Shown piece by piece: positions 8,419-36,976 of a DNA stretch of 43,040 bases; positions within the stretch are counted from its first letter, which is position 1; every line of letters starts with the position of its first letter. Source of the DNA: an uncultured bacterium. Its GTDB lineage: Bacteria > Patescibacteriota > Minisyncoccia > Phycocordibacterales > GWA1-40-21. The notes beneath the pieces are model-generated. The model was not told the DNA's origin, did no database searches, and saw nothing but the letters and a program-made list of their open reading frames with translations. Position numbers and translations under genes: made by a program. The DNA lies in NCBI GenBank assembly GCA_903850545.1, contig CAINLW010000018.1, positions 1 through 43,040 of the forward strand, written 5' to 3'.

Positions 8419-8626
8419 TGGCCTTATCGTCTGATGTGAGATTGGGTTGGGACCCAATCGCAAGATCGGAGCACGGCGGTGCGAGTCGGGGTCGGCATAA
8501 ATTTTCGGCAGAAAATTATATGTGACCCAAGCGAAAGACCTGTGATAGTTTTATATGAACGACAGTGAAATAAAAAACAGAACAGGTGTACAGCTTCTGT
8601 AAGAAGGTAAATTCGGGGTTCGAGGT
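8419..8626 (+). ncRNA. Candidate structured RNA upstream of tRNA-Glu
   Basis: This block starts with GGCCTTATCGTCT, identical to the first 13 nt of the tRNA-Glu 228 bp downstream, and ends with a T-arm-like TCGGGGTTCGA. Between them are stems: GATTGGGT/ACCCAATC, GGGTC/GACCC enclosing AATTTTC-GGCA-GAAAATT, ACCTGT/ACAGGT enclosing TTTTAT/ATAAAA, and ACAG-CTT-CTGT. The last part (8585-8607) is shared exactly with 36937-36959. No ORF of note. Whether it is transcribed is unknown. Confidence 0.45.
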
Positions 8627-8646: not shown

Positions 8647-8718
8647 GGCCTTATCGTCTAACGGTTAGGACACGGCCTTCTCAAGGCTGGAATCGGGGTT
8701 CGATTCCCCGTAAGGTCA
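8647..8718 (+). tRNA. tRNA-Glu (anticodon CTC)
   Basis: A 72-nt cloverleaf. The acceptor GGCCTTA pairs with TAAGGTC (one G-U). The D arm is GTCTAACGGTTAGGAC, the anticodon stem CGGCC/GGCTG with loop TTCTCAA (CTC at 34-36), and the T arm CGGGG-TTCGATT-CCCCG, with discriminator A. CCA is not encoded. The sequence closely parallels E. coli tRNA-Glu in layout. A terminator follows at 8727. Confidence 0.95.
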
Positions 8719-8765
8719 CAGTTTCAGGAAGCGCTTAAATAGCGCTTTTTGAACTTGTGACCTTA
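8711..8765. repeat. Long inverted repeat containing the tRNA 3' end
   Basis: TAAGGTCACA (8711-8720, including the tRNA acceptor strand) is exactly inverted at 8756-8765. Together with the inner arms this gives an about 25-bp imperfect hairpin whose tip is GAAGCGCT/AGCGCTTTTT. The tip (8727-8750) with its T run probably terminates tRNA-Glu transcription. Confidence 0.75.
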
Positions 8766-8806
8766 AGCAAACAAACTGCTTTGTTTGCGTCGGGGAATCG
8801 AACAGC
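8766..8806 (-). repeat. Inverted tRNA-Glu 3' fragment with hairpin insertion
   Basis: Read on the minus strand, GTTCGATTCCCCG (the tRNA T-arm 3' portion) is followed by a hairpin GCAAAC...GTTTGC and then TAAGGTCACA. It is a partial, reversed copy of the tRNA 3' end with a 24-nt insertion between T arm and acceptor strand. It has no 5' half, so it is not a functional tRNA. Confidence 0.6.
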
Positions 8807-36798: not shown

Positions 36799-36864
36799 CT
36801 TTAGTTGAAAAACATTCACTTTTCTGACATGATTAGTACATTGAAGTATTTATTGGTGTATTTC

Positions 36865-36976
36865 TGTCTTTGCGAGTGAGGAAGTGAAAGTATTCACTTC
36901 CGCAAGACCTTGAACGCTTTGTAATCAAAGAGTGAAAGGTGTACAGCTTCTGTAAGAAGAAGCGTGGCAATCCAGA
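36865..36976 (+). ncRNA. Structured element in the priA leader sharing a 23-nt block with the tRNA-Glu locus
   Basis: GTCTTTGC/GCAAGAC closes a hairpin GGAAGTGAA-AGTA-TTCACTTCC. Then ACCTT/AAGGT encloses CTTTG-TAAT-CAAAG, and ACAG-CTT-CTGT follows. The segment 36937-36959 is identical to 8585-8607. The ends GTCTTTGCGAG and GCAATCC also occur at 39505-39540 as a shorter repeat. Confidence 0.5.

Follow-up and report, generated by a model that had tools for sequence, protein, structure and literature searches.

In the window, that is the whole 43,040-nucleotide stretch of DNA analysed here (part of a genome of 985 kb in 64 contigs), one 23-mer, AGGTGTACAGCTTCTGTAAGAAG, occurs identically at 36937-36959, in the leader of priA, and at 8584-8606, close to a tRNA-Glu gene. 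Both copies are on the forward strand, as are all the window features given below, and no match is expected in shuffled sequence. The preliminary description of this DNA had reported the identity, placing the second site one position too high, at 8585; it had also drawn stems upstream of the 23-mer, and these are present at both sites (ACCTT/AAGGT with an inner CTTTG/CAAAG at priA, ACCTGT/ACAGGT with TTTTAT/ATAAAA at tRNA-Glu). When the genome and its relatives are searched for the 23-mer, dispersed copies of a structured family are recovered; they represent a three-hairpin element that has the 23-mer as its conserved 3' end.

The two copies in the window

In the priA leader, the whole element (type I, TGAG...AGAAG) extends over 36877-36959, its ends being taken from interrupted duplicates elsewhere, and a covariance model of the family, R2, matches it at 36903-36959. 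It begins with the P1 hairpin, TGAG-GAAGTGAA...TTCACTTC-CGCA (36877-36904), read from the sequence and the type I pairing; there follow the P2 helix, ACCTT...AAGGT with an inner GCTTTG/CAAAG stem (36907-36940), placed by covariation and R2, and the P3 hairpin, CTTCT-GTA-AGAAG (36947-36959), placed by covariation. The left flank, GTCTTTGCGAG (36866-36876), is the 5' arm of a dispersed palindromic host repeat that is also present at loci L003 and L110, and comparison with L003 indicates that this repeat continues in the right flank, GTGGCAATCCA (36963-36973). The arm of the palindromic repeat in which the element sits is GTCTTTGCGAG...GTGGCAATCC, and the arrangement is the same at L003 in the same genome; because of this position, the element and the host repeat may have arrived at priA together. 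The palindromic repeats themselves (GTCTTTGCGAG...CTCGCAAAGAC; 36866-36976 in the window, L003 and L110) are a distinct dispersed family in which copies of the element reside.

Upstream of the element lies a promoter-like stretch of priA, TTGAAA...CTGACATGATTAG (36803-36838), which was recognised by comparison with five related genomes (G001, G002, G006, G009 and G011). In this comparison, which concerns the single locus priA, the promoter-like stretch of the five relatives abuts the priA start and the site is empty, whereas in the window's genome the two are separated by an insert of about 200 bp that holds the element. In three further genomes (G003, G004 and G007; loci L242, L241 and L243), different inserts, some of them palindromic, lie between the promoter-like stretch and the start. 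To judge from these sequences, the priA leader looks as if it were an insertion hotspot.

At the tRNA-Glu locus, the 5' part of the element (TGAG, P1 and CGCAAGA; 8437-8465), identified from its sequence and from the intact copy at L013, is split from the core by a second dispersed repeat nested at 8466-8533 (ends approximate, from comparison with L006, L013 and L044). The core, which consists of P2, GGTGTACAG and P3, occupies 8534-8606. On the two sides of the element, alignment identifies parts of a single tRNA-Glu copy: a truncated 5' end, GGCCTTATCGTCTGATG (8420-8436), which forms a 14-nt direct repeat with the intact gene, and a T-arm remnant, AATTCGGGGTTCGA (8607-8625); since both belong to one copy, the element interrupts a second tRNA-Glu. 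The intact tRNA-Glu (CTC), an Rfam tRNA match in the window, follows directly downstream (8647-8719). Beyond it, the 3' end of tRNA-Glu is repeated in antisense (8757-8803), with a hairpin where acceptor and T stem meet and no element core, and a module of this kind precedes the type II copies of the family. The nested repeat, GGAGCACGGCGGTGCGAGTCGGGGTCG...TTTTCGGCAGAAAA...GTGACC, has relatives at L006, L013, L044 and L144, and at L044 the element is inserted into such a relative.

Architecture and covariation of the family

An alignment of 60 diverse copies gives AAGACC-P2-GGTGTAC[A/T]G-P3, and the consensus of the whole element, about 80-110 nt long, is RRG|TGAG-P1-CGCAAGACC-P2-GGTGTAC[A/T]G-P3|, where P3 is NNYCT-GTA-AGRNN. 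Since the copies were gathered by means of the 3' motif, its conservation is in part a product of the search, which placed no constraint on P1, on the N positions of P3 or on the 5' strand of P2.

The proposal that pairing is kept in spite of sequence change is borne out by these 60 sequences: for P2 and P3 jointly, 88.9% of the cells are paired, as against 73.1% with shuffled partners and at most 58% with slid ones, and both sides are changed in 175 cells versus 61 with shuffled partners. P2, a long helix whose length varies, contains GA-rich internal loops and has both-side change in 12 of its 16 pairs; it was tested with an explicit structure drawn from the same 60 sequences, since RNAalifold alone missed it because of gaps. 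The strongest covariation of the family is found in P3, in which 99% of the cells are paired and the three outer pairs are altered on both sides in 31, 24 and 16 of the 60 sequences. Its motif is fully paired in 170 of 184 copies, and the sequence of its loop (C-UGUAA-G) resembles a T-loop. The P1 hairpin (TGAG...CGCA), which lies upstream of the core in many copies, pairs in 87% of the type I copies, with 4.32 of 5 pairs formed versus 2.13 after shuffling (78 type I copies). R2 scores the copies in the window at 65.2 bits (8534-8606) and 51.8 bits (36903-36959), both of which belong to the 60 copies on which the model was built; because of this training, it is the covariation over the 60 sequences that provides independent support. 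The upstream stems, whose loss in other copies had been foreseen as an objection to a structured family, are preserved across the order.

Rfam 15 at its curated thresholds found only tRNA in the window and no family for the element, and in E-value mode, at ten loci, no family over the element rose above its gathering score. An integron attC site was considered and rejected, the RYYYAAC and GTTRRRY boxes being absent from the alignment consensus. No description of the element was found in the literature searched, in which subscription journals and preprints are thinly covered, and a small three-hairpin element in an order of ultra-small Parcubacteria apparently has no earlier description.

The preliminary description had seen in the 23-mer a bistable regulatory switch, since two mutually exclusive hairpins can be drawn from it, and at priA the position of the element between the promoter-like stretch and the start would suit such a role. 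However, the alternative hairpin, ACAG-CTT-CTGT, cannot form in 100 of the 184 copies (which have GTACTG or GTACCG there) and is without covariation, whereas P3 covaries strongly; moreover, relatives lack the element at priA and there is no consistent downstream gene. We therefore consider a switch in the priA leader highly improbable. Among the flanking ORFs, 46 are co-directional with the element, 30 are opposite and 44 are otherwise arranged, and no coherent downstream gene set, such as would mark a riboswitch or a cis-regulatory RNA, was seen among them. Because relatives are without the insert, and because neither downstream gene nor orientation is consistent elsewhere, there is no support for regulation of priA by the element. 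Of the suggestion that this is a mobile or regulatory RNA family, what finds support is a structured family with mobile-like behaviour (dispersal, a filled and an empty site, interrupted tRNA duplicates).

Distribution, ends and targets

The window's own genome holds at least 17 copies; with up to three mismatches allowed, the exact pattern gives six and a looser pattern ten. Pattern matches occur in 43 of 98 related genomes, and a reversed control pattern has almost none. With the covariance model, the element is detected in 160 of 297 genomes of the order, with a patchy presence within genera, and in a phylum-wide sample of 286 genomes there are six positives, all from the same order. No more than 16-17 candidates were scored per genome, under strict filters, so these copy counts are lower bounds. 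Scanning 84,980 species genomes with a pattern yielded at least 114 stretches; among the matches listed, those with informative names are nearly all Parcubacteria (Nomura-, Zambryski-, Kaiser-, Taylor-, Lloyd- and Vogelbacteria), and there is one bin labelled Woesebacteria. A match labelled Paludibacter (L080) and the sole match on a viral contig (L158) both lack the P2 helix and are false, and a phage origin was rejected accordingly. As far as sampled, the element is confined to one order of Parcubacteria. At three loci (L193, L068 and L280) it occurs in tandem together with a flanking tRNA-derived or gene-derived hairpin, with a spacing of about 155-160 nt at L193 and L280.

The ends of the element were placed from loci at which one of two copies of a sequence is interrupted, and they are concordant among independent interrupted duplicates (L287, L144, L135, L046 and L111). 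At L287, the first 49 nt of a tRNA-Gly, an identical duplicate, stop at GGCGGG|TGAG; after P3 the tRNA resumes at its T-loop, TTCGATTCTCCC, and an intact tRNA-Gly then follows. At L144 the insertion lies after the anticodon arm of a tRNA-Val (45-nt duplicate), at L090 and L115 it lies after the D arm, and at L135 and L046 the interrupted duplicates are outside tRNAs; partial tRNAs and gene starts are both interrupted by copies. The left flank is RRG (GGG, AGG, GAG or AAG) in 81 of 86 copies, its last G being fixed by the search. Logos of the ends have TGAG on the left and a variable paired foot on the right, and in most of the interrupted-duplicate comparisons the P3 foot replaces about 2 nt of the target. 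In one genome (G389), copies that share a core differ in their flanks or sit within other repeats. A composite transposon between close pairs of elements was rejected, since the intervening ORFs, judged by their translations alone, look ordinary.

A tRNA lies within 350 nt of 82 of the 184 copies, and 77 of these 82 are on the strand of the tRNA; only 6.4% of random positions away from the elements lie so close to one. For 62 copies there is an upstream tRNA on the same strand, at a median of 127 nt from the conserved GGTGTAC and with 30 anticodons represented. The order there is tRNA, palindromic trailer, antisense segment from T loop to acceptor, core, and sense copy from the T loop. The antisense segment has a hairpin at the acceptor/T-stem junction, the sense copy sometimes has a small hairpin, and both resemble the tRNA of their own locus more closely than they resemble other tRNAs (p about 1e-9 for the antisense and 1e-15 for the sense pieces). 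That many tRNA-linked copies lie between antisense and sense versions of the 3' end of their own tRNA suggests a fold-back chemistry on single strands. About half of the copies have no tRNA nearby.

The same arrangement could be read as that of a functional RNA module, in which type II copies would be a 3' appendix of the tRNA transcript, the antisense segment would regulate or process the tRNA by pairing either with its 3' half or with the sense copy further downstream, and the other copies would have spread by recombination. The fixed distance and strand downstream of tRNAs of so many anticodons argue for this, as do the conserved layout, whose hairpins recur at the same junctions of the tRNA, the RNA-like covariation and the tandem GA motifs. 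Conservation of the core sequence across families could also mean selection for function, and it counts against a mobile element. But the copies away from tRNAs, the partial tRNAs and gene starts that are interrupted and the patchy presence within genera all speak against such a module, and the pairing of the inverted copies is no evidence of selection, because copying from a tRNA gene yields it automatically. For the family we regard a functional module as unlikely, and for the type II copies a functional tRNA-linked RNA is possible.

A probable mobile element and its possible mechanism

A non-autonomous mobile element accounts for the dispersal, the patchiness, the empty site and the interrupted duplicates, and we think it rather probable that the copies are short (about 80-110 nt) three-hairpin elements of this kind, MITE- or REP-like, with a preference for tRNA genes. 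The element is probably a genomic parasite and not a switch that controls priA. It would insert after RRG, preferentially in tRNA genes, at the boundaries of the D arm, the anticodon arm or the T-loop and on the same strand, with the replacement of about 2 nt of the target in comparable cases; the survivors would be those in which the split partial copy is accompanied by an intact tRNA. Its movement or copying may proceed through a folded single strand and depend on an enzyme provided in trans. Fold-back copying around an element single strand joined at the T-loop position would generate the inverted tRNA copies, and recombination in the palindromic trailer could then yield the observed order of tRNA, antisense, core and sense. 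The priA leader copy would be one such insertion, carried within another palindromic repeat. The most specific form of this reading we put forward as a long shot: the element, without a protein, would insert copies of itself into tRNA genes as folded single strands, and T-loop fold-back would give it an antisense flank on one side and a sense flank on the other, custom-fitted to each tRNA.

In the search for a mobilising enzyme none was found. Host Y1 transposases (IS200/IS605 or RAYT-like) might move the elements as a REP or MITE family; the hairpins at both ends would fit, and Y1 genes are present in 44 of 59 carriers versus 16 of 39 non-carriers (Fisher p = 0.0014, uncorrected for phylogeny), a rough test in which carriers are model plus motif matches and genomes outside the covariance-model sample count as non-carriers. 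However, R2 has no match within 1.5 kb of 30 Y1 loci, and 40 further loci gave four, of which two lay in stretches that had been selected because they span a known element; Y1 is absent from 15 of the 59 carriers, including three with 15-16 scored copies each (G020, G041 and G048); and in place of GTAG the element has TGAG at one end and a variable hairpin foot at the other. Compared with an IS200/IS605-derived MITE, the element has P1 and P3 at its ends and RRG on the left, but its right end is without a fixed cleavage motif and about 2 nt are replaced there. With so weak an association and no linkage, mobilisation by host Y1 proteins, with RAYT/Y1 as the cognate enzyme, seems to us doubtful. 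Reverse transcriptase (RVT_1) is not associated either (31 of 59 carriers, 18 of 39 non-carriers), and eight carriers have neither gene. One copy in the window's genome has a same-strand reverse transcriptase gene some 300 nt upstream of it (G000, contig C26, 6034-6106 and 6412-7023), which we take as chance.

Among known systems, REPs with GTAG tags and REPINs, with their RAYT transposases, are short dispersed hairpin repeats inferred to be non-autonomous mobile DNA (PMC3733652, PMC3116915). Like the element, they form hairpins, are dispersed and are patchy between relatives (PMC3733652, PMC3116915); unlike them, the element has three hairpins, 80-110 nt, no GTAG tag, no position flanking Y1/RAYT-like genes, and a strong preference for tRNA genes and for their strand. 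CGTC-tagged REPs and the Rickettsia palindromic elements are likewise palindromic, without a dedicated transposase and also found inside genes (PMC3733652), but the element lacks the CGTC tag, has another structure and other hosts, and is accompanied by sense and antisense tRNA copies. The Dada DNA transposons of animals also target multicopy small RNA genes (tRNA and snRNA), which limits harm to the host, although they are protein-coding and eukaryotic and the element is gene-less and bacterial (PMC3706591, PMC8869645). The repetitive hairpin elements of sponge mitochondria are reported to be small hairpins that invade intergenic DNA; they are organellar, and the likeness considered here is one of form (PMC2800124). 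The nearest known kinds are therefore REPs/REPINs and Rickettsia-type palindromic elements, the tags and RAYT linkage of which are not encountered here, and among small mobile hairpin elements the targeting of tRNAs is unusual.

Because the ends and targets of the element are defined, its mechanism and enzyme are directly testable. The genomes of Parcubacteria are very small, and dispersed non-coding repeats are usually regarded as uncommon in them. A structured element that reaches 15 or more copies in a genome of under one megabase, targets tRNA genes and is maintained order-wide would represent a new cause of genome change in these bacteria, as well as a source of extra, interrupted and antisense tRNA sequence.
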